Positions 22,010 through 32,876 of a stretch of DNA of 64,000 nucleotides are shown here, one piece after another. Below the pieces are notes generated by a model. That model did not search any database. It worked only from the letters and a program-made list of their open reading frames with translations, and was not told where the DNA came from. Source of the DNA: Verrucomicrobiales bacterium (GTDB lineage: Bacteria; Verrucomicrobiota; Verrucomicrobiia; Verrucomicrobiales; DEV007); the NCBI GenBank assembly GCA_029213195.1, contig JARGNI010000004.1:124001-188000 (forward strand). The letters are read 5' to 3'. Each line of letters opens with the position of its first letter. The stretch's first letter is position 1. The position numbers and the translations under genes were made by a program.

Positions 22010-24037
22010 GTGAGTTTTCTCTTCCCGCTCTATCTGCTCGGTGCCGCCGCTCTCGCGATCCCGATCCTGCTGCATTTGCGGAGAAGACCCCCGAAAGAAC
22101 ATATCGAGTTCAGTTCTCACCTCTTCCTCGAGAAAACTCCCGAGCGCCTCACGAGACGGACCCGACTCGAAAAGCTCCTTCTTCTCGCGCTTCGCTGTCT
22201 CGCGATTCTCCTTCTTGCCTTTGCCTTTGGACGACCCTACCTGCCCTCGTGGGGCGAAGCCGCCCAGGTCGACTCCATCACCCGGGCCGTCATCCTCCTC
22301 GATCGAAGCGCCTCACTGCAACGGGAAGACCTCTGGCAACAGTCCATCGAAGCCGCTGTGGAAGCGGTCGAGCTCTACGACAGCGGAGACGAAGTCGCCT
22401 TCGCCGTGTTCGATGAAAGCTTTGCCCTGGTTGCGGATTTCCCGGCCTGGGCAACGCTCGGGAAAAGCGGCCGCAAGTCGGCCCTGAAATCTTTCGCCGA
22501 CGACGCGGAGTCTCCCTCCTGGCTGGGAACCGATCTGGGGGATGCCATGACGGCGGCTGCCGATCTCCTCGTTTCAGCGGACTCCGATCGCCCCGCCGGT
22601 CGACGCGAAGTCGTCGTGATCAGTGACTTTCAGGACGGAGCACGTCGCACCGAGCTGCAATCCGCCGCGTGGCCCGAGGAAGTTCTCGTTCGCCCCGTCA
22701 AGATTGCGGCGAGTGAGCCCGCCAACCTCACGCTCAACCTCGCCGCCACGCCCCCTCGAGCCAATGTCGAAGACGCCGAAGTCTACCGAGTCCGCGTCCG
22801 CAACGCTGAAGAATCGGAGGAAACCCAGGCCACGCTCTCCTGGAAAGGATTTCCGGATACCTCCCTGCCGGTCACTGTCGCCCCGGGGACCAGTCGTATC
22901 GTCACCTCGGCTCCTCGTCCCGAGGGAGCGGAAGAGGGCATTCTCGTCATCGAGGGAGACGACCACCCCTTCGACAACGAGATCTATGTTTCTCCCGTCC
23001 AGGCTCGCCCACTCCGGATCCTCTTTCTTTCGGAGGACGGAATCGCTGAAACAGCGGGGTCTCCCCTCTTCTATCTCCAACGTGCCTTGCAGCCCACCCC
23101 GATCCTCGAACCTCGCCTCATCGCAGCCGAAGAACTCTCCGAAGAGACGCTGGAAAAGAGCGACGTCATCATTGTCGCGGACGCCTGGAAAAAGGAAACT
23201 GGGCTCCAGCTCGCAGCTTTTGCCGAGAAGGGCGGCCTCGTCATTGCCCTGCCTTCCGAAAAAGCCTCGCCGGATACATTCACTCACCTCACTGGGAATG
23301 ATTCCTGGAAACTCAGTGAAGCGAGTGTCGATGACTACGCCCTCCTCGCGGATCTCAACTTCGATCACCCCGTGCTCCAACCCTTCGCCCGAGCGCAGAT
23401 CCGGGATTTTACGAAGGTTCGATTCTGGAAACATCGCCTTCTCGAACTTCCCAACGAACCGGAAGAAGAAACTCGCGTCCTCGCGACCTTCGATGGTGAA
23501 AGCCCTGCCCTGATCGAGCGAACCCAGGGAGAAGGGGCACTGTTTGTATTCTTGTCAGGATGGGAACCCCAGGAAAGCCAACTCGCCCTTTCCTCCAAGT
23601 TCGTTCCCCTGCTTTTCTCCCTTTTCGAACACAGCGGATTCAGCATCCGCTCCGCCGCCACTCTTTATGTTGGCGAAACCGATCGGGAGAAACCGGGGTT
23701 CTATACTCGTGGAGAAGAAGGAGGACTCGTGGAAGCCATCAATCTCGAACCGACTGAAGGAAACGTTTCCCCGTTCGACCCAGCCGTCGTTTTCCCAGAC
23801 TGGGGAATCCCTCTCGTCGATGAAGAGGCCGAGAGGCAGAAACAGAATCTCACCGAAGCCCAACTCGCCCGTCTTGCCTCCGAAGAAAAAGAAGAGAACC
23901 AGAAACTCTGGAAATGGCTCATCCTCGGGGCACTGATTCTGCTCCTGATCGAGTCGATCCTGTCAGGCCGACCTTTCGGCAAAAGCCGTGGACGCACCCG
24001 ACGTGACCCTGCTCCTGCTGCCACTCCGGCAACGTAA
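22010..24037 (+). CDS. BatA-domain / VWA-domain membrane protein
   Basis: 675 residues from a GTG start (MSFLFPLYLLGAAALAIPIL), the standard BatA opening. Residues 1-75 are the BatA domain with two membrane segments around a basic loop (HLRRRPPKEHIEF). Residues about 90-220 are a von Willebrand A domain with MIDAS motif DRSAS. A beta-rich middle part and a C-terminal membrane helix (about 628-645) follow, so the bulk faces the periplasm. Such proteins are usually encoded with a MoxR ATPase and a DUF58 protein; neither is adjacent. First gene of a five-gene plus-strand operon. Confidence 0.85.
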   Translation: MSFLFPLYLLGAAALAIPILLHLRRRPPKEHIEFSSHLFLEKTPERLTRRTRLEKLLLLALRCLAILLLAFAFGRPYLPSWGEAAQVDSITRAVILLDRSASLQREDLWQQSIEAAVEAVELYDSGDEVAFAVFDESFALVADFPAWATLGKSGRKSALKSFADDAESPSWLGTDLGDAMTAAADLLVSADSDRPAGRREVVVISDFQDGARRTELQSAAWPEEVLVRPVKIAASEPANLTLNLAATPPRANVEDAEVYRVRVRNAEESEETQATLSWKGFPDTSLPVTVAPGTSRIVTSAPRPEGAEEGILVIEGDDHPFDNEIYVSPVQARPLRILFLSEDGIAETAGSPLFYLQRALQPTPILEPRLIAAEELSEETLEKSDVIIVADAWKKETGLQLAAFAEKGGLVIALPSEKASPDTFTHLTGNDSWKLSEASVDDYALLADLNFDHPVLQPFARAQIRDFTKVRFWKHRLLELPNEPEEETRVLATFDGESPALIERTQGEGALFVFLSGWEPQESQLALSSKFVPLLFSLFEHSGFSIRSAATLYVGETDREKPGFYTRGEEGGLVEAINLEPTEGNVSPFDPAVVFPDWGIPLVDEEAERQKQNLTEAQLARLASEEKEENQKLWKWLILGALILLLIESILSGRPFGKSRGRTRRDPAPAATPAT

Positions 24038-24049
24038 CCACTCATCCTC

Positions 24050-27000
24050 ATGATCGAAAAACTGCTCGCTTCTTGCCTCCGACCTGTTCTCGACGCCGAG
24101 ATTCAGCTCCGTCGGCGACGCATCATCACGAGTCTATTGCTTTTCGGAACGGTGGTCTTCCTCGGACTCCTGGCCTTGGCGAAATGGCAGGGCTACTGGT
24201 CCTGGGAGGTCATCTTTGCCGCCCTTGGCGGGATCGCCCTCGTCGGATTGATCGCCCTCGTCCGCGCCGGGAGAGATCCCGATTGGAAGGCGATGGCCCG
24301 CAAGATCGAGGATCACCACCCCGATCTCAATACCGCACTGCTCACAGCTCTCGACCAGAAGCCCGATGCCGACGGGAATCTCGGTTATCTCCAGCGCCGC
24401 CTCCTCTCCGAGGTTTCCGAACACGCCGTCCGAAACCGCTGGGTTCGAAATGTCTCGGGAAAACGGCTCCGGCTCGCCGCGTGGGGACAATTTGCTTCCG
24501 TGATCGGTTTCGTTCTTTCCGTTTGGTTCCTTCTTGGATTTGCCCCCGGGGCCAGGACCCTGCTTCCTGAACCCGGCATCACCGGGGTCGAAGAACCGAA
24601 GCCGGCTGTTCCCGAAATCCAGCTCAGCGTCTCACCTGGAGATGTGGAGTTGGAAAAAGGCTCTCGACTCATCGTCGAAGGAAGCTTTTCGGGTCGAGCT
24701 CCCGCAGCAGCCCAATTAATTCTGCAGACCGAAGAAGGGGAAAAATCCATCCCGATGAATGTCGGTCTCGATGACAATGTTTTCTCCGCCCTGATTCCCC
24801 GTGTCGATGTCCCGGGCAACTACCAGGTCCGCTACGAGGGGAAAAACTCGGAGAGCTACGAAATCGAAGTCTTCGAGCTCCCCAAGCTGGTACAGGCGGA
24901 TGTGACGGTCACTCCCCCCGCCTTTCTCGAAAAGGAACCCGAAACGATCGAAGACACCCGAAAGTTCACGGTCATGGAGGGTTCCCGTCTCGACTGGAGT
25001 CTTCGGGTCAACAAACCCATCGAAGCGGGAGAGCTCTTTGGCGAAGATGAAACCTCCATCCCTCTCGCACCAAGCAAGGAGGACCCCACGCTTCTCGTCG
25101 CCACCCAGGTTCCCACCAAAAGCCAACGCTACCGGGTGCACCTGGTCGACAACAAGGACCGTGCCAATCGCCGCCCCCCCTGGATCACCGTAAACGTGAA
25201 GCGCAACCAGGCTCCCAAGCTCAAGCTTCTCTTCCCCGGAAAAGACTTCGAAGTCTCCGCGGTTCAGGAACTCCCCCTCGAGGCTGAGGTCTGGGACGAC
25301 GTAAAGGTCGAATCCGTCGGCTATGCCTATCAATTTGGAGAAAAGGAAACCGTTGTGACGATCTCCTCCGATCCCCTCATCGGCGAGAAGAAGCATGTCG
25401 TCACCGAAAAGCTCGATCTCGAACCTCTCGGCGCCGAGCCGCGAGATCTCATCACCTACTATTTCTGGGCTGAGGACCGCGACAACGACGGAAATATCCG
25501 CCGCACCACCAGCGATATGTTTTTTGCCGAAGTCCGGTTTTTCGAGGAGATCATCCGAGAAGGAGCTCCTCAACAAGGCAGCCCGGGTGAGGGTGGCGGC
25601 GAGTCCGAAGAACTTCTCAAGCTTCAGAAAGAGGTCATCAACGCCGCCTGGAAGCTGCGGCGGGATCACGATCTCGGGAAGGCTTTCGATCTTCTCGTTT
25701 CCGATGTCGAGGTGGTGGCCGAATCCCAGGGGGTCGTCCTCGGAATGATCCAACCCGTCATCGAGGAAACAGAAGATCCGGAACTGAAGAAAATTTTTCT
25801 CGAGGCCCAGGCTCTCATGCAACAGGCGGAGTCGGAATTCGTTCTCGTCGTTGAAAAAGAGGATGGTGACCTGATTTCCCCGGCTCACCAGACCGCTCGC
25901 TCGGTCTTCGCAAAACTCATCGAAGCCCGCTCTCGCGAACAGGAGATCTCCATGTCGAAGAGCCAACAGGGCAGTGGTTCGCAGCAGGAGCAACAGCGGA
26001 ACATGAATCTCGAGCTGGAGCAGAAGGAGCTCAAATACGAAGAGCAGTCCCAGGCGCAGATGGAGCAGCAGACTGCCGAGCAGAAAGAGAATCTCGCTGT
26101 CCTCAGTCGCCTCAAGGAGCTCGCCCGCCGCCAGGAAGCGATCGCCGAAAAAATCAAGGAGTTGGAAAACCAGCTCCAGGATGCGGACGAGGAGGAAAAG
26201 GCCGAGATCGAACGCCAGCTCAAGCGACTCGAAGAGGAGCAGCGAGAGCTCCTGCGGGAAGCCGATGATCTTTCCGAGAGGATGGATTCCGAAGAGAACC
26301 GCGCCAACATGACCGAAGAACGGGAGCAGTTGGAGAAAACCCGGGAGAATATTCAGGACACCGCAGAAGAGCTCAGCGAAGGCAACCTCGCCGATGCAGC
26401 CAACTCCGCGACTCGAGCCTCGCGAGAACTCAACGAAATCGAGGAAGAATTTCGCGAGCGCACCTCTCGGCAGTTTGCCGAAGAAATGCGGGGCATGCGG
26501 GACAAGGCTCGCGAACTGGCCGAAGCCCAGGAAGAGTTGGGAAAAGAGCTGGCTGATCTCAACGCCACCGACGCCGATGATCCTTACACCGCAGAGAGCC
26601 AGAAGAAACGCGGAGAGCTGGCCCAGCAGATTACCGCCGAAGCTCGCGAGCTGAGTGATCTCATCAATGAAATGAAACAGCTCAGCGAGGATTCCGAAAC
26701 CTCCGAGCCGATTCTTTCCGATGCCCTCTACGAGGCGATCCGCAACACGATCACCAGCGGAACCGAGGAGTCCCTCCAGGAAGCTCGCGATATGACCTTC
26801 TACAATCGCCCCGAGCAGGCTCTCGCCTCCCAGCAGGCGGCGGCACGAGGAATCGAGCAACTCAAAGAGGCCGTCGAAGAAGCGGCCGACAAGGTGCTCG
26901 GCAACGAAGCGGATGCCCTCCGTCTTGCGCGCTCCGAACTGGATCGTCTCATTGAAGACAGCCAGAAAGAAGCCGAGAGACTCGCCCAACAGAATGGTCA

Positions 27001-28126
27001 GCCCAATGGAGAAGGACAGGAGAATTCCGAGCCAGGTGACCCACAGGGACAGGGAGCTTCGGATACACCGGGTGAGAAAGGAGAAACCTCCCCCGATGGG
27101 AAACAGCCCGGACAACAGGGGAAAGGGGAAAATGTCGCCGAAGCCAGCAATCCCGAAGGCCAGCCATCGCCAGGAAATCAACCTGGTGAAGAAGGACAAC
27201 CTGGAAGCGAGGGCCAGCAGCCCGGAGAAGAAGGTCAGGGTCTCGCTCAGAATTCCGAAGAAGGCCAACAGCCCGGTCAGGGTCAGCAACCCGGCGAATC
27301 CGCCCAGCCTGGAGAAGGTCAGCAGCCCGGAGAAGGCGAGGGACAACAACCGGGTCAAGGGGAAGGCCAAAACCCCGAGATGGCAGAAAATGGTCAACAA
27401 CCCGGACAAGGTCAAAGCCCGGGTGAGGGACAGGGTGAAACTCCAGGCCAGGGCCAGAGCCCCGGTGAAGGACAGTCTCCCGGAGAAGGGCAAAGCCCCG
27501 GGCAAGGCCAGGGACAAAGCCCCGAGATGGCTCAGGGCGGGGAACAACCCGGACAGGGACAGAGCCCTGGCCAGGGACAATCGCCAGGCGAGGGGCAAGG
27601 TCAGCAACCCGGCGAAGGTCAGGGGCAATCTCCCCAGGGAAGCTCCGGCCAGACGGCCTCCAACAGCTCTTCTCCCCGGAGAGGATCCCTCAGTCTCGGC
27701 GGAGACGATCGTGGAAGCGGAATGCCAACCGGTGGCCAGCCGAGCGGGCCTCTCTTCTTCCAGCAACAGTCCGAGCAGAGAACCGAAGGGGCCATCACCG
27801 GAGAAGACTACACGGATTTTCGTGACCGACTCGGGAACATCGAGGAAATGTTACCCCAGGAGGACCTGCGAAATGCCGCCGCCCGCGTCGCCGACAATGC
27901 CCGCTCCATGCGTGTCGACTTCAGCCGAGACAACCTGCCCCCCGGAGCCGCCGATATCGAGCAGCGAATTACCGATCCTCTCATCGAGCTCCGCCAGCGG
28001 GTCAGTGAAGAAATCGCAAAACTGAATCGGGAGAATCCGATCGCCCCGGTCGATCGCGATCCGGTACCCTCCGAATTCCGCGACCTCGTCCGTCGCTACT
28101 ACGAAGAACTCGGTGCCGGGAAATAA
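24050..28126 (+). CDS. Giant DUF4175-like membrane-anchored coiled-coil protein with Gly/Gln/Pro repeat tail
   Basis: 1358 residues. Residues 1-170 hold three membrane segments around RRRRIITSLLLFGTVVFLGL, GGIALVGLIALVRA and a third near 150. Residues 175-500 are beta-rich, Ig-like. Residues about 640-980 are a long charged coiled coil (repeated ELARRQEAIAEKIKELENQL-type heptads). Residues about 985-1205 are a low-complexity tract of GQ, PGEG and PGQGQ repeats. A short alpha-helical end domain follows. The layout matches DUF4175-type proteins of PVC and Bacteroidetes Bat operons. A structural or tethering role in the periplasm is plausible, but the function is unknown. Confidence 0.82.
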   Translation: MIEKLLASCLRPVLDAEIQLRRRRIITSLLLFGTVVFLGLLALAKWQGYWSWEVIFAALGGIALVGLIALVRAGRDPDWKAMARKIEDHHPDLNTALLTALDQKPDADGNLGYLQRRLLSEVSEHAVRNRWVRNVSGKRLRLAAWGQFASVIGFVLSVWFLLGFAPGARTLLPEPGITGVEEPKPAVPEIQLSVSPGDVELEKGSRLIVEGSFSGRAPAAAQLILQTEEGEKSIPMNVGLDDNVFSALIPRVDVPGNYQVRYEGKNSESYEIEVFELPKLVQADVTVTPPAFLEKEPETIEDTRKFTVMEGSRLDWSLRVNKPIEAGELFGEDETSIPLAPSKEDPTLLVATQVPTKSQRYRVHLVDNKDRANRRPPWITVNVKRNQAPKLKLLFPGKDFEVSAVQELPLEAEVWDDVKVESVGYAYQFGEKETVVTISSDPLIGEKKHVVTEKLDLEPLGAEPRDLITYYFWAEDRDNDGNIRRTTSDMFFAEVRFFEEIIREGAPQQGSPGEGGGESEELLKLQKEVINAAWKLRRDHDLGKAFDLLVSDVEVVAESQGVVLGMIQPVIEETEDPELKKIFLEAQALMQQAESEFVLVVEKEDGDLISPAHQTARSVFAKLIEARSREQEISMSKSQQGSGSQQEQQRNMNLELEQKELKYEEQSQAQMEQQTAEQKENLAVLSRLKELARRQEAIAEKIKELENQLQDADEEEKAEIERQLKRLEEEQRELLREADDLSERMDSEENRANMTEEREQLEKTRENIQDTAEELSEGNLADAANSATRASRELNEIEEEFRERTSRQFAEEMRGMRDKARELAEAQEELGKELADLNATDADDPYTAESQKKRGELAQQITAEARELSDLINEMKQLSEDSETSEPILSDALYEAIRNTITSGTEESLQEARDMTFYNRPEQALASQQAAARGIEQLKEAVEEAADKVLGNEADALRLARSELDRLIEDSQKEAERLAQQNGQPNGEGQENSEPGDPQGQGASDTPGEKGETSPDGKQPGQQGKGENVAEASNPEGQPSPGNQPGEEGQPGSEGQQPGEEGQGLAQNSEEGQQPGQGQQPGESAQPGEGQQPGEGEGQQPGQGEGQNPEMAENGQQPGQGQSPGEGQGETPGQGQSPGEGQSPGEGQSPGQGQGQSPEMAQGGEQPGQGQSPGQGQSPGEGQGQQPGEGQGQSPQGSSGQTASNSSSPRRGSLSLGGDDRGSGMPTGGQPSGPLFFQQQSEQRTEGAITGEDYTDFRDRLGNIEEMLPQEDLRNAAARVADNARSMRVDFSRDNLPPGAADIEQRITDPLIELRQRVSEEIAKLNRENPIAPVDRDPVPSEFRDLVRRYYEELGAGK
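26997..27655 (+). repeat. In-frame Gly/Gln/Pro/Glu low-complexity repeat tract
   Basis: About 220 codons dominated by GQQPGEGQ, PGQGQSPGEGQ and similar short units within the DUF4175-like gene. Units vary in length and codon use, so this is an old or selected repeat and not a fresh microsatellite. The tract creates a large antisense open frame on the minus strand. Confidence 0.9.
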
Positions 28127-28150
28127 GCCCGCTGCTCCCCTCCCCATTCG

Positions 28151-30553
28151 ATGATGCTGTCTGCTTCCTATTCTCCCGTGCTCTCCTCGATCGCTTTTGC
28201 GAGCGAGTCATGGGCCTGGGTCGCCGTTGGCTTCGGAGTCGCTTCGCTTCTCATTCTCTTCTTCAGCTATCGCAACTCTCCCCTGAGAGGTGCTCCACGG
28301 ATCTTTGCTCTTCTCTTCAAGGCGATCGGTCTCATTCTCCTCGCCCTTGTACTTCTCGAGCCGGTCCGACTCGACGAGCAACCAAAGAAAAACGCCAACG
28401 ATCTCGTCATTGCCGCTGACAATTCGTCAGGGATGACGATTGCGCTCCAGGAAGAAAACCCGACACCCGCTGACCTGCTCGCTGACGCCCTTGGAAAAGA
28501 AAATCCCGACAGTTATCCCGAGTGGATGGATAACATGCAGGACACCTTCCGTCTGCAGACCTTCCTCTTCGATCGCAACCTGAGACGTTCTGCGACCTTT
28601 GCCGATCTCGATTTTGAAACTCCCTATTCGGATCTCGAAACCGTCCTGACAGGAATCGAAACACGATTCAAGGATCGGCCTCATGCGGCGACTCTGCTCC
28701 TCACCGATGGCAACGCCACCGACTCGGCCAAGATCGAAAGCTGGCTCGAAGCCATCGAAACCGAAAATGAGGAACGACCGCCCATTTACCCGGTCCTCAT
28801 CGGAGAAGAGAATCCGGAAGCCACCGATCTCGCCATCACCGAGGTCGATGCCAGCCTCACCCAGTTCGAAGACGCCCGAGTCAGTCTCTCCATCGAAACC
28901 TCGGCTCGGGGAGTCTTCCCCAACCCCGTCGAAGTCTTTGTTCTCAACGAAAAGGGAGAAGAACTCGCCAAAAAACAGATCGCCTTCTCTCCGGAAGCCG
29001 CGCCGCAAAAGGTCCCTGTCCGACTTCGCCTCGCGGCGATCCCTCCCGGGATTTCCTTCCTCACCGCCGGGATCCGCCAGATCGGCGATGAAACCATCCC
29101 GGAATTGACCGAGAAAAACAATCAGTTCCAGATCACCGTCAACCAGGGGAGCGGACCCTACCGCATCCTCTATGTCAGCGGTCGCCCCAACTGGGAATAC
29201 AAATTCCTGCGACGCGCTCTCGCCGAAGATGCCGAGCTCGATCTCGTCGGGCTCATCCGCATTGCCAAAAGAGAACCCAAGTTCGAGTGGCGCGGCCGTA
29301 CCGGTGAATCGAGCAACCCCCTTTTCCGAGGCTTCAACAGCGACATCCCCGAAGAAACCCAGAAATACGACGAACCCGTTCTGATCCGACTCAACACGGC
29401 CACTCCCGAGGAACTGCGAGACGGCTTCCCGTCCTCGGAAGAGGAGTTGTTCCCTCACTACCGGGCCATCGTTCTCGATGACATCGAATCCGAGTTCTTC
29501 ACCCAGGAGCAACAGGAGCTCGTCGATCGCTTTGTGTCTTTGCGAGGAGGAACTCTCGTCATGCTGGGGGGACAAGAGTCTTTCCAGTCCGGAGAATGGC
29601 AGAATACCGCAATCGGGCGGCTTCTCCCTGTCTACCTCGAGCGACTTGGATCGGGCCCTCCCGCCATCCAGGGTGCCTACAACCTGACCCGTGAAGGCTG
29701 GCTCGAACCCTGGATGCGACTGCGCGCCAACCAGAACGATGAAACGACCCGGCTCGCCTACATGACACCGTTCTTCGCGATCAACCAGATCCGTGCCATC
29801 AAGCCCGGCGCTCGACTCCTCGCCACGGTCAAGGACTCGGAGGATCGCCTCCTCCCCGCCATCGTGACCCAACGATATGGCGAAGGAAGGTCTGCCGCGG
29901 TGCCGGTGGGAGATTTCTGGAGATGGGGAATGAAAGATGCCGAGCAACAAGCCGAGCTCGGAAAATCGTGGAGACAACTCCTGCGCTGGAGCGTCAACGA
30001 AGTCGCGACTCGGGTCAATCTCCAGAAAGAAGAGCTCAACGAAGGCGGACTCCCCCTGACCGAGATCTCGGTCCGCGTCCGTGATGAAACGTTCCGCGCC
30101 CAGGACGACGCCACGGTGATGCTGACGGTGACGGGACAGGATGGATCTTCCACCGTTCTCAGCGGCGAGCCCTCCCTCGATGAACCGGGCCTTTTTACCG
30201 CGCAATACTCCACCATCGATCCGGTCGGATATCGCATCACCGCCACCGTGCTCGACGGGGACGGCGAGGAAATTGGGTCTGCGGAAACCGCTCGCGCCGT
30301 CAATCCCGAGGCCAGGGAGCTGGCAAGCCTCGGCCCCAATCGAGATCTTCTTCAGCGAATCGCGGACGTAACCGGAGGAAAGTTGCTCACCCTCGAGGAC
30401 CTCGATCGACTCCCCGCCCTTCTCGAAGATCTCGATCTTCCTGTTTCAGAAATGCGCCAAACTCCGCTCTGGCATGCGCCCTGGCTCTTTCTCCTCGCCC
30501 TTGCCTTTTTTCTCGGGGAATGGATCATTCGTCGACGCCAGGGCATTCTCTAA
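28151..30553 (+). CDS. VWA / class I glutamine-amidotransferase-like membrane protein
   Basis: 800 residues. Two N-terminal membrane segments lie at about 20-38 and 52-70. A VWA-like domain follows from about residue 80 with a degenerate MIDAS (DLVIAADNSSGM). A middle domain beginning YRILYVSGRPNWEYKFLRRAL contains GGTLVMLGGQESFQSG, the GATase1-like fold used by these proteins; no catalytic Cys triad is visible. A C-terminal membrane helix (LFLLALAFFLGEWIIRRR) ends it. It is the standard third member of PVC Bat-type operons. It lies 24 bases after the DUF4175-like gene. Confidence 0.82.
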   Translation: MMLSASYSPVLSSIAFASESWAWVAVGFGVASLLILFFSYRNSPLRGAPRIFALLFKAIGLILLALVLLEPVRLDEQPKKNANDLVIAADNSSGMTIALQEENPTPADLLADALGKENPDSYPEWMDNMQDTFRLQTFLFDRNLRRSATFADLDFETPYSDLETVLTGIETRFKDRPHAATLLLTDGNATDSAKIESWLEAIETENEERPPIYPVLIGEENPEATDLAITEVDASLTQFEDARVSLSIETSARGVFPNPVEVFVLNEKGEELAKKQIAFSPEAAPQKVPVRLRLAAIPPGISFLTAGIRQIGDETIPELTEKNNQFQITVNQGSGPYRILYVSGRPNWEYKFLRRALAEDAELDLVGLIRIAKREPKFEWRGRTGESSNPLFRGFNSDIPEETQKYDEPVLIRLNTATPEELRDGFPSSEEELFPHYRAIVLDDIESEFFTQEQQELVDRFVSLRGGTLVMLGGQESFQSGEWQNTAIGRLLPVYLERLGSGPPAIQGAYNLTREGWLEPWMRLRANQNDETTRLAYMTPFFAINQIRAIKPGARLLATVKDSEDRLLPAIVTQRYGEGRSAAVPVGDFWRWGMKDAEQQAELGKSWRQLLRWSVNEVATRVNLQKEELNEGGLPLTEISVRVRDETFRAQDDATVMLTVTGQDGSSTVLSGEPSLDEPGLFTAQYSTIDPVGYRITATVLDGDGEEIGSAETARAVNPEARELASLGPNRDLLQRIADVTGGKLLTLEDLDRLPALLEDLDLPVSEMRQTPLWHAPWLFLLALAFFLGEWIIRRRQGIL

Positions 30554-30562
30554 TACCTCTCC

Positions 30563-31528
30563 ATGTTGCGATTTCTCATTCTCGGACTCACCCTGTTTCT
30601 TTCGCTGCCACTCGTGGCCGAGGAAAAGGAGATCCGTATTCTCGTGGTCACCGGAACCAGCGGAACCGACAAGTTCGAAACCATCTTTGCCGAGAACGCA
30701 CTCAGATGGAAAGAAGCGGCCGAACTCGGAGGCGCCACTTTCGAGTTGATCGGCCAGGATCGAGGAGTGGAAGACAACCAAGCCAGCGACGCGGAAAAAC
30801 TCAAGGCCGCCATTGCCGCGGCCAGGGAACCTGAGCTCTGGATCGTGCTCATCGGGCACGGCTCCTTCGATACACGGGAAGTGAAATTCAATCTCGAAGG
30901 TCCCGATGTGACCGACACCGAAATCGCCGAGTGGGTGAAGGCGTATCCCGGAAAGCTGACCTTCATCAATACCGCATCGGCAAGTGGTAGCTTTGTCAGG
31001 AAACTTTCCGGGAAAGATCGAGTTGTCATCACCGCAACCAAGAATGAAGCCGAAGTCTTCTACACTCGTTTCGGAAACTACTTCGTCGAAGCGATCCAGG
31101 GGAAGGAGGACGCCGATCTCGACAACGACGACCAGGTATCACTTCTCGAAGCCTTCATCTTCGCCTCGGACGAAGTCTCCACGTTTTTTGAGGTCGAAGG
31201 GCGCCTCGCCACGGAGCACGCCCTGATCGACGACAACGCGGATGGCCTTGGTTCCCGGGCCGAATGGTATGAAGGGACCACCCCCACTCGGACTCCGGCA
31301 AAAGACAAGGAGGCCGACGGAGAGCTGGCTTCCCGACGTGTCCTCGTGAAAAACGAATTTGAAAGACGGCTCACCGCCGAGCAGCGCGCGCAGCGCGACG
31401 AGTGGGAGCAGCAGGTCAGGGCCCTGCGTCGAGCCAGAGACGATATGGAGGAAGAGGCTTACTACGATCAGCTCGAATCTCTCCTCCTGAAACTGGGAGC
31501 TCTTTACAAGGAAGTCAGCGACTCCTGA
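30563..31528 (+). CDS. Exported caspase/C13-peptidase-fold protein with substituted catalytic Cys
   Basis: 321 residues with signal peptide MLRFLILGLTLFLSLPLVAE. The core resembles caspase-like peptidases: VLIGHGSFDT gives the catalytic-His motif (His99). The strand that should carry DxCxSG reads FINTASASGSF, with Ser139 at the Cys position. An acidic EF-hand/dockerin-like loop (DADLDNDDQVSLLEAF, from Asp183) follows. The C-terminus is helical and charged. The protein is probably not a cysteine protease and may be a binding or scaffold member of the operon. It starts 10 bases after the previous gene. Confidence 0.75.
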   Translation: MLRFLILGLTLFLSLPLVAEEKEIRILVVTGTSGTDKFETIFAENALRWKEAAELGGATFELIGQDRGVEDNQASDAEKLKAAIAAAREPELWIVLIGHGSFDTREVKFNLEGPDVTDTEIAEWVKAYPGKLTFINTASASGSFVRKLSGKDRVVITATKNEAEVFYTRFGNYFVEAIQGKEDADLDNDDQVSLLEAFIFASDEVSTFFEVEGRLATEHALIDDNADGLGSRAEWYEGTTPTRTPAKDKEADGELASRRVLVKNEFERRLTAEQRAQRDEWEQQVRALRRARDDMEEEAYYDQLESLLLKLGALYKEVSDS

Positions 31529-31535
31529 AGCCGAG

Positions 31536-32876
31536 ATGGATGAGTCTCCTCAAGAGATTGCCGAGTCCCCCGCGACTGGTTCCCGCTCCGCCGAGACGCG
31601 CCCGAAATGGGCGAAACGATCACAGCTGAGCAGTGGGGGTCGCCTTTTCGCCGGGCTCCTCTTTGCGATTCTCTCCGGTGCCGTATTCTTCATCGACATC
31701 CAACCCGAACCCGCCAAGTGGGTTTTCTTCCTCCTTGGCCTGGCGGGAATACTCCTCCTCACCTTCTGGCGAGCTCCCGCAGAAGAGAAAAAAGATGAGG
31801 ACGATATCGTCGAGATCGCTCGCCAGGCGATCAAGAACGAGGCGACTCGACTCGATCACAAGCGAGCCGATCTCGAGAAAGTCCTCATGTCCTATGGCGA
31901 GTGGATGGAGTTTCCCGACTACCAGGTACTCCAGACCATCGATTGGAAGGATGCCGCTCATCACACCCTCGACGAGCGGGTCGCCAATCTGCTCGATGCG
32001 GAGGCGGATCTCGTCATCCAGCGTTTTTCCAGCGGTGTTTATTGGAAAGACGGGCAGTTCGAGGGGCGTCAACTACTCCTCGATCTCGTGTCCTTCACGG
32101 AGTCCATTGCCCGGATCTATCAACCCGAAGCCAAGCTTCCCCTGCTCGAGCTCAATCTCGAGAGTCTGCTCAAGGCCGTCAATCGCGCTTCGCTTCAGAT
32201 CATTCTCCTCCTCGAAGAATTGCCCATCGTCGAGGTCCAGCAGATGAACCTGCGCAAGATGTCGGACAACATCCGCAAGGCATCCTCTGTCTACAAAAAG
32301 GTCGAGGGGATGCAACCCTACCTGAAGCCTGTTCGATACCTCTGGCAGGGCAGCAAGCTTCTGCTCGCCTCCAATCCACTGCTCGCTGCAGGGTGGATCG
32401 CCGGATCCGAGGTGCTCTGGAAAGGGGGCAAGCACCTGGGAAAGAAAGCCGTCGATGCCTACCTCCTCAGCCTCGTCCGCCAGACCCTGGGCATCATCGC
32501 CTGGGAGACAGCCGGGATCTACGATTCGACCCACCGTTATCGGAATCCCGACTGGATCTACGGCGTCGAGCTGGCGCACCTACTCAGCAAATTCGATGCG
32601 ACCCAGGAAGTGCTCAGGGAGACCTTTCGCGAGTTGGGGCGCCTTCCTCTGCGCAGCAGCTACGACCGAATTTTTCTCTATCGCTGCATTGCCCAGAACG
32701 CGAGCCCGAAGCCCAAGCACTTTGCTCAGCCGGATTCCCTCGGTCGTGAAATTCGAGAACAACTCCGGGATCAGCTCCTCGCATTCTACGAGAAAAACAT
32801 CAGCGCCAACGCCGATGCCGAGAATGAAAAGACGGTTGAATGGCGCAAGGGGTTGAAGGAGCGCCTCGGACTCTGA
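31536..32876 (+). CDS. Two-TM membrane protein with large cytoplasmic helical domain, unknown
   Basis: 446 residues. Two membrane helices near 36-72 (LFAGLLFAILSGAVFFID, WVFFLLGLAGILLLTFW) form a hairpin anchor. About 370 mostly helical residues follow, with weak hydrophobic stretches near 270-300. I recognise no catalytic motif. It starts eight bases after the caspase-like gene, so it belongs to the same operon and probably to the same complex. It is the last gene before the hsp20 promoter. Confidence 0.7.
   Translation: MDESPQEIAESPATGSRSAETRPKWAKRSQLSSGGRLFAGLLFAILSGAVFFIDIQPEPAKWVFFLLGLAGILLLTFWRAPAEEKKDEDDIVEIARQAIKNEATRLDHKRADLEKVLMSYGEWMEFPDYQVLQTIDWKDAAHHTLDERVANLLDAEADLVIQRFSSGVYWKDGQFEGRQLLLDLVSFTESIARIYQPEAKLPLLELNLESLLKAVNRASLQIILLLEELPIVEVQQMNLRKMSDNIRKASSVYKKVEGMQPYLKPVRYLWQGSKLLLASNPLLAAGWIAGSEVLWKGGKHLGKKAVDAYLLSLVRQTLGIIAWETAGIYDSTHRYRNPDWIYGVELAHLLSKFDATQEVLRETFRELGRLPLRSSYDRIFLYRCIAQNASPKPKHFAQPDSLGREIREQLRDQLLAFYEKNISANADAENEKTVEWRKGLKERLGL

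Follow-up and report, generated by a model that had tools for sequence, protein, structure and literature searches.

The stretch of DNA analysed here (the window) comprises 64,000 nucleotides of a Verrucomicrobiales bacterium and lies on contig C81 of its 5.9-Mb genome, available in 115 contigs. Five open reading frames (ORFs) of the + strand follow one another in the window at positions 22010-32876, with intergenic gaps of 12, 24, 9 and 7 nt in the ORF list, in agreement with the 7-24 bases given by an initial annotation of the sequence. Within a MoxR-DUF58-BatA module for envelope maintenance, these genes together probably make up the membrane/periplasmic half, which would be driven in trans from an ATPase half located elsewhere in the genome.

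Gene 1 (22010..24037, +, 675 aa) encodes a protein combining a BatA N-terminal domain and a VWA domain, as initially assigned (Pfam BatA at 2.5e-17 and VWA_2 at 2.7e-6; TIGR02226 at 3.2e-19). It carries a metal ion-dependent adhesion site (MIDAS) motif, DRSAS, at residue 98 and three predicted transmembrane (TM) segments, detected as hydrophobic segments at 3-21, 56-74 and 633-651. The product of gene 2 (24050..28126, +, 1358 aa) is N-terminally anchored, with hydrophobic segments at 25-43, 53-71 and 148-166, and contains long coiled-coil-like and Gly/Gln/Pro-rich parts. The window copy itself gave no match to PF13779 (DUF4175), which 14 of the 22 aligned gene 2 members match at E-values up to 0.1 (best 3.1e-9); NCBIfam returned only scattered weak matches, which were not used. 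Judged by sequence, gene 2 is probably a member of a divergent group within DUF4175. A 1016-aa open frame lies antisense to it at window positions 24716-27766 (-) and is probably a compositional shadow. Gene 3 (28151..30553, +, 800 aa) encodes a TM-anchored GATase1_like protein (PF07090, 1.5e-6; hydrophobic segments at 20-38, 51-69 and 775-793) with a VWA-like N-terminal half. It had been described as a second VWA/GATase-like protein: Pfam recovers the GATase part, and the VWA part, with no Pfam hit in the window copy, is assigned from an alignment of 14 members. D90, S92, D186 and G187 are invariant in this alignment, and the last Ser of the DxSxS motif is found in 10/14 members, its place being taken by Gly in the window copy. 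Gene 4 (30563..31528, +, 321 aa) encodes an exported protein with a predicted legumain/caspase fold and S139 at the place of the catalytic Cys. Finally, gene 5 (31536..32876, +, 446 aa) encodes a two-TM protein.

Hydropathy analysis detected 3, 3, 3, 1 (signal-like) and 2 hydrophobic segments in the products of genes 1 to 5, respectively, and all five are predicted to be membrane-anchored or exported, as the initial annotation had stated. No Pfam family was matched above cut-off by the window copies of genes 2, 4 and 5. The gene order is kept in many relatives despite other flanking genes; since the order persists while the flanks differ, the run is more than a chance arrangement.

Gene 5 looks like a late joiner of this run rather than a core part. 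It is present in 31/56 relatives, all belonging to the family of the window (f1), and is found behind gene 4 in locus L114. In some genomes it is separated from the other operon genes (for instance G027, G029, G032 and G034). Its matches against Pfam were all sub-threshold, with no ATPase domain, and its structure model was poor (predicted local distance difference test score, pLDDT, of 61.3). One relative, G019, has two tandem copies of gene 5 behind gene 4 (L183:8426-11309).

Linkage of the operon to MoxR, DUF58 and DUF4159

Homologous loci were found through gene 3, keeping the best 80 of 538 candidates, with gene starts set at the longest possible ORF; loci with a gene 3 identity of 55% or more were defined as the window-like clade. 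Gene 1 was present in 37 of the 80 loci, 21 outside the window-like clade and 16 within it. The 43 loci without gene 1, many of them cut by contig ends and 12 not, were excluded from the linkage count. Outside the window-like clade, DUF58 and MoxR were located directly upstream of gene 1 in 18/21 loci, DUF58 only in 1 (L119) and neither in 2. This count slightly favours the positives, as loci with a short upstream sequence were scored positive if MoxR-DUF58 was visible (for example L116 and L148) and set apart otherwise (L094 and L107). Within the window-like clade, MoxR-DUF58 was found upstream in 0/16 loci, 14 of which have at least 2.6 kb of upstream sequence and 2 less. The linkage outside the clade runs counter to the separate, ATPase-less assembly proposed in the initial annotation.

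DUF4159 was detected in 12 loci, all of them among the 18 with MoxR-DUF58 upstream. Six of these 18 (L121, L124, L126, L140, L152 and L157) carry titles naming Planctomycetes, Planctomycetota, Phycisphaerales or Sedimentisphaerales. Linked loci thus occur in both Verrucomicrobiota and Planctomycetota. The module is also linked in L110, from the cultured Brevifollis gellanilyticus. MoxR, DUF58 and genes 1-3 of L124 and L126 overlap by 4 nt at each of their four junctions, taking the longest-ORF starts; successive overlaps of this size are the usual sign of translational coupling. Locus L114 displays eight genes consecutively, in the order DUF4159-MoxR-DUF58-gene 1-2-3-4-5. A seven-gene run without gene 5 was found in L190, which belongs to a one-contig 6.1-Mb genome from another family of the class. 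Among order-level relatives, the operon starts with MoxR-DUF58 in L052, L053, L054, L055, L056 and L058, L056 also having DUF4159 in front. In G034, from the same family and another genus, MoxR-DUF58-gene 1-gene 2 run to a contig end (L159), and a second contig opens within gene 2, followed by genes 3-4 (L060). The two contigs are unjoined and look like one operon cut by the contig end. Similarly, G053 has MoxR-DUF58-gene 1 on one contig (L163) and genes 2-4 on another (L057), the break falling at a different place. Because the linked order is spread over two phyla, we infer that it is older than the split one, so that the pair would have separated from the operon rather than joined it repeatedly. 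These loci define a seven-gene version of the poorly understood MoxR-DUF58-BatA modules in Verrucomicrobiota and Planctomycetota. One further locus, L151, carries genes 2-4 on a public metagenome-assembled genome record titled Klebsiella pneumoniae, a label that looks wrong.

The window's own genome contains 10 MoxR (AAA_3) matches, DUF58 on nine contigs and 8 BatA matches. None of the MoxR and DUF58 matches is on contig C81, and the initial observation that the window holds no ATPase partner is therefore correct. A MoxR and a DUF58 gene that are neighbours of each other lie on contig C50 (L067:2939-5106, -), and a DUF4159 gene lies on contig C17 (L180:7083-7982). In a tree of 35 MoxR sequences, the C50 copy is the only one of the 10 own MoxR to fall in the operon-linked clade (support 100/100). 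In the corresponding tree of 35 DUF58 sequences, the C50 copy is likewise the only one of the 9 own DUF58 among the operon-linked ones, with a support of 84/97, below the star of the tool. The DUF4159 gene on C17 forms a pair with the L114 copy (support 98/97). The C50 MoxR retains the motifs GAPGLAKT and LILADE, and the MIDAS of the C50 DUF58 reads DRSKS. In all 6 relatives with a linked operon (G036, G040, G044, G047, G050 and G055), the best match to the C50 pair was the operon copy. Going by the trees and these best matches, the C50 pair is orthologous to the operon-linked MoxR and DUF58. Looking for moxR and DUF58 elsewhere in the genome, as had been advised, hence gave an answer opposed to an assembly lacking them. 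The initial annotation had also held that a moxR-DUF58 pair belonging to this operon in close relatives would tell against such an assembly; on the genomic side the pair does belong to it, because it is upstream in most loci outside the window-like clade and has its orthologous pair on C50. The absence of a neighbour is not the absence of a partner, and it is the relatives that reveal where the ATPase genes are.

Other copies in the genome were considered as partners of the operon. The DUF58 on C97 was rejected: it is beside a DUF4381 protein and pairs in the tree with the copy of L139, not with the operon-linked ones. The lone MoxR on C65 was rejected on the same tree pairing, and the lone MoxR on C53, near a transglutaminase gene, was set aside. 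The genome also has a second, linked module on contig C32 (G000:C32, L068:2844-12748), in the order MoxR-DUF58-BatA-VWA/GATase-DUF4175-DUF4159.

Co-occurrence of the pair and the operon was scored over 56 genomes, using sets compiled by hand with cut-offs of our choice and counting the operon as present when any of genes 1, 3 and 4 was found. C50-class DUF58 and the operon were both present in 36 genomes, DUF58 only in 2, the operon only in 4 and neither in 14 (Fisher 5e-8, relatedness uncorrected). For C50-class MoxR, the counts in the same order were 38, 2, 2 and 14. Among the 23 relatives outside the genus, DUF58 and the operon were found together in 9, singly in none and both absent in 14. 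A search of the 56 relatives detected C50-class DUF58, at 63% identity or more, in 29 of 33 same-genus genomes (own included). In 27 of these 29 genomes, the coordinates put MoxR next to it; G023 and G029 are the exceptions. Twenty of the regions with C50-class matches were retrieved.

Several observations weigh against the five genes being driven by the C50 pair. The pair is unlinked to the operon in the window's clade and therefore could serve another job: among the loci seen, linkage is limited to a divergent second operon copy in G029 (L059), ordered DUF4159-MoxR-gene 1-2-3-4-WD40-DUF58. In 7 of the 12 detached loci of the genus that were examined, a 369-aa protein and a TIM-barrel protein come after the pair; in the window's genome these two occupy L067:962-2914 (-), the 369-aa protein having no Pfam family above cut-off. 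On a Phycisphaerae contig, a MoxR-DUF58 pair of another kind stands 6 kb behind gene 4 (L139:11915-13860), and its relatives in the own genome stand apart (MoxR on C65, DUF58 on C97). Breaks within the operon are frequent as well: genes 3-4 occur without recognisable genes 1-2 in 12 of the 80 loci, despite about 10 kb of upstream sequence, and L111 and L112, outside the window-like clade, have no MoxR-DUF58 pair. DUF58 without genes 1, 3 or 4 was found in G004 (92% complete, gene 5 being at a contig start) and G018 (77%). The operon was found without C50-class DUF58 in G015 (77% complete), G017 (52%), G021 (97%, with a partial MoxR 87% identical) and G022 (63%). Finally, in Leptospira biflexa, deletion of bat genes is reported to have left morphology and growth unchanged (PMC3557215).

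The detachment of the pair, which lies on a different contig from the operon both in the window's genome and in the compared relatives of the genus, and its other neighbours in the 7/12 loci would be explained if the five-gene unit had become independent in the window's clade. MoxR-DUF58 would no longer be needed, gene 5 would take over and the detached pair would serve another target; of the 18 loci that have MoxR-DUF58 upstream, L114 alone includes gene 5. We regard this independence as unlikely. An operon gene is carried by 36 of the 38 genomes with C50-class DUF58, pair and operon are either both present or both absent outside the genus, L114 combines gene 5 with MoxR-DUF58, and no ATPase domain was found in gene 5 with Pfam. 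A module acting in trans is the likelier explanation.

The predicted legumain/caspase-like fold of gene 4

The candidate pseudo-legumain subunit encoded by gene 4 is the most novel and most distinctive part of the module. Its fold was taken from a structural model because the profile search against PDB chains yielded one irrelevant weak match (E 0.67) and the Pfam C13 match was below cut-off. The AlphaFold2 model, computed from 36 sequences, had a pLDDT of 91.1. Using Foldseek, the top hit was 2fp3 (8.7e-7), and the 45 matches at E-values up to 0.001 were caspases, MALT1 and glycosylphosphatidylinositol (GPI) transamidase. VIA-align, which re-ranks the Foldseek matches, placed legumain 4nol first (Z 18.0, root-mean-square deviation 2.4, 184 aligned), and the identity of gene 4 to the listed legumain and asparaginyl-endopeptidase rows was 11-17%. 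Gene 4 is thus predicted by modelling to have the legumain/caspase fold of clan CD cysteine peptidases, and its window copy contains no Cys residue, in keeping with the Cys-less caspase-fold protein initially recognised.

The place of the catalytic Cys was set at residue 139 by aligning the motif that follows the strand to the legumain and caspase motifs, rather than by a residue-level superposition. The His motif GHG is retained as in the legumain, GPI transamidase and caspase fold; unlike in clan CD peptidases, position 139 holds Ser in 35 of the 36 members, Ala in the remaining one and Cys in none. Residues H99, S141, D185, D187, Q191, S193, E196, D224 and D227 are invariant in 36/36. Two Asp-rich stretches, one spanning D185-E196 and the other starting at D224, are invariant and by their pattern resemble EF-hand loops. 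We tentatively propose that the gene 4 type might be a catalytically dead legumain/caspase-fold protein, that is, a periplasmic recognition or calcium-sensing subunit dedicated to the MoxR-DUF58-BatA machine of Verrucomicrobiota and Planctomycetota. If this is true, the type would represent a hitherto undescribed family of pseudo-peptidases acting as adaptors of MoxR/VWA machines, and so recurrent a subunit could reveal what MoxR-DUF58-BatA modules recognise in the envelope.

The conservation of H99 and S141 in all members and of S139 in 35/36, together with legumain being the best structural match, could also be read as the mark of a hydrolase, not a pseudo-enzyme, relying on H99 together with S139, or with a Cys close to it in a few members. 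Such a Cys is seen at 137, two residues before S139, in three of the 36 members (L135, L138 and L157) and at or beside 140 in L058. We know of no natural serine version of the legumain/caspase fold. Moreover, 33/36 members have no Cys within residues 129-148 and the His is also lost among more distant relatives (L193), so that an active hydrolase seems quite improbable.

These more distant relatives are gene-4-like domains that form the N-terminal part of DUF3857/transglutaminase proteins (L191:6706-9333, -; L192:8417-11068, +; L193:7181-9727, -), encoded immediately in front of MoxR-DUF58-BatA in further members of the class. In L194:5916-8279 (-), such a domain is N-terminal on a transglutaminase protein beside DUF4159. 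None of the domains of L191-L194 has a Cys at the aligned place, and that of L193 is also without the His, displaying LLGTSV where the GHG motif stands. A phylum-wide sample, rich in one genus (g4) without gene 4 in the rows listed, gave gene 4 matches in 6/115 genomes, full-length in the own genome and G139 and shorter in four; the distribution of gene 4 is therefore patchy.

Known systems and proposed working of the module

The module type is already known and its composition here is a new version of it. Compared with the MoxR-DUF58-BatA envelope module, the own genome has the MoxR and DUF58 orthologues in trans and BatA with its VWA MIDAS, adjacency being absent. MoxR, DUF58 and a BatA/VWA protein with MIDAS are shared with the Bat operons of Bacteroides, Leptospira and Borrelia (moxR-DUF58-batA-...); unlike in the Bacteroides-type operon, neither BatD nor TPR (BatC/E) was matched by Pfam among the five proteins. 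The likeness extends to the Rhizobium leguminosarum operon RL3499-RL3502 (cmdA-D), in which an MRP-kind MoxR is described in an operon with a membrane-integrity and morphology role. Its other genes are presumably DUF58, DUF4159/BatA and GATase-like ones. In contrast to that operon, which belongs to a different phylum, the module studied here encodes BatA and DUF4159 in two separate genes and includes a large DUF4175-like protein, the pseudo-legumain and gene 5; its MoxR-DUF58 is detached in the window's clade. The importance of RL3499 for membrane integrity and cell morphology has been reported (PMC3893208), envelope and morphology changes are reported for mutants of the operon (PMC5700661), and insertions in RL3499 and RL3500 are tabulated as growth-impaired on one medium (PMC5118466). 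Because of these reports, envelope maintenance is our best guess for the function of the module, by analogy.

From this comparison the following working can be proposed. The ancestral order would have been DUF4159 - MoxR - DUF58 - gene 1 - gene 2 - gene 3 - gene 4, with gene 4 as the pseudo-legumain; in the window's clade, MoxR-DUF58 and DUF4159 would have moved apart from the operon and gene 5 joined it. MoxR would form a cytosolic AAA+ ring, DUF58 with its MIDAS would act as the adaptor, and from the cytosolic side the two would remodel or assemble a membrane complex of the products of genes 1-3. This remodelling is likely by analogy with NorQ-NorD, a MoxR/VWA pair for which twisting and stretching of the VWA partner has been proposed (PMC13036017). 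The VWA, GATase-like and long coiled-coil parts of genes 1-3 would extend into the periplasm, as the inner-membrane BatA-type VWA protein BB0173 of Borrelia is reported to face this compartment (PMC5700661). As for DUF4175, this domain is described together with two TM helices in AdvA, a division protein of Acinetobacter baumannii (PMC7481262). The secreted gene 4 product, probably non-cutting, would bind or sense in the periplasm, perhaps in a calcium-dependent manner, and the whole module would maintain envelope integrity, as is reported for RL3499-RL3502 in R. leguminosarum. The arrangement implies a testable split between a cytosolic engine and a membrane/periplasmic machine.

A MoxR-VWA core and, in some cases, caspase-fold proteins are also described in the MoxR-VWA ternary conflict systems (PMC7159879), and the operon could accordingly be a defence system of this kind with a caspase-like effector. 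The C50 MoxR exceeds the Pfam bpMoxR cut-off (45.6 bits), though AAA_3 scores far higher, and a WD40 protein lies between gene 4 and DUF58 in the second operon copy of G029 (L059:1168-3045, -). We consider this alternative very improbable. PADLOC gave no match for seven proteins at E-values up to 0.001, and Pfam scans of the operon proteins found no STAND- or FtsH-like third component, no search being aimed at the VMAP family. Furthermore, position 139 of gene 4 is devoid of Cys in every member, the gene set is of an envelope type with an order stable across two phyla, and PMC7159879 makes no mention of DUF58. An envelope module remains the preferred reading.

None of the open-licence PMC papers reached by the searches describes this gene composition, and the gene set as a whole may be undescribed. 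DUF4159 had no mention in the open-licence PMC papers searched and DUF4175 was mentioned in one only (PMC7481262). In a Caulobacter control, DUF4159 and DUF58 matched and DUF4175 did not. Plasmid searches did not settle the alphaproteobacterial comparison; they returned distant homologues in Gemmatirosa and Planctomyces. As regards the surroundings of the run, ribD and lon were both absent from the compared stretches of relatives, which span up to about 18 kb each; in the window, ribD and a 419-aa gene flank the run upstream and lon downstream.

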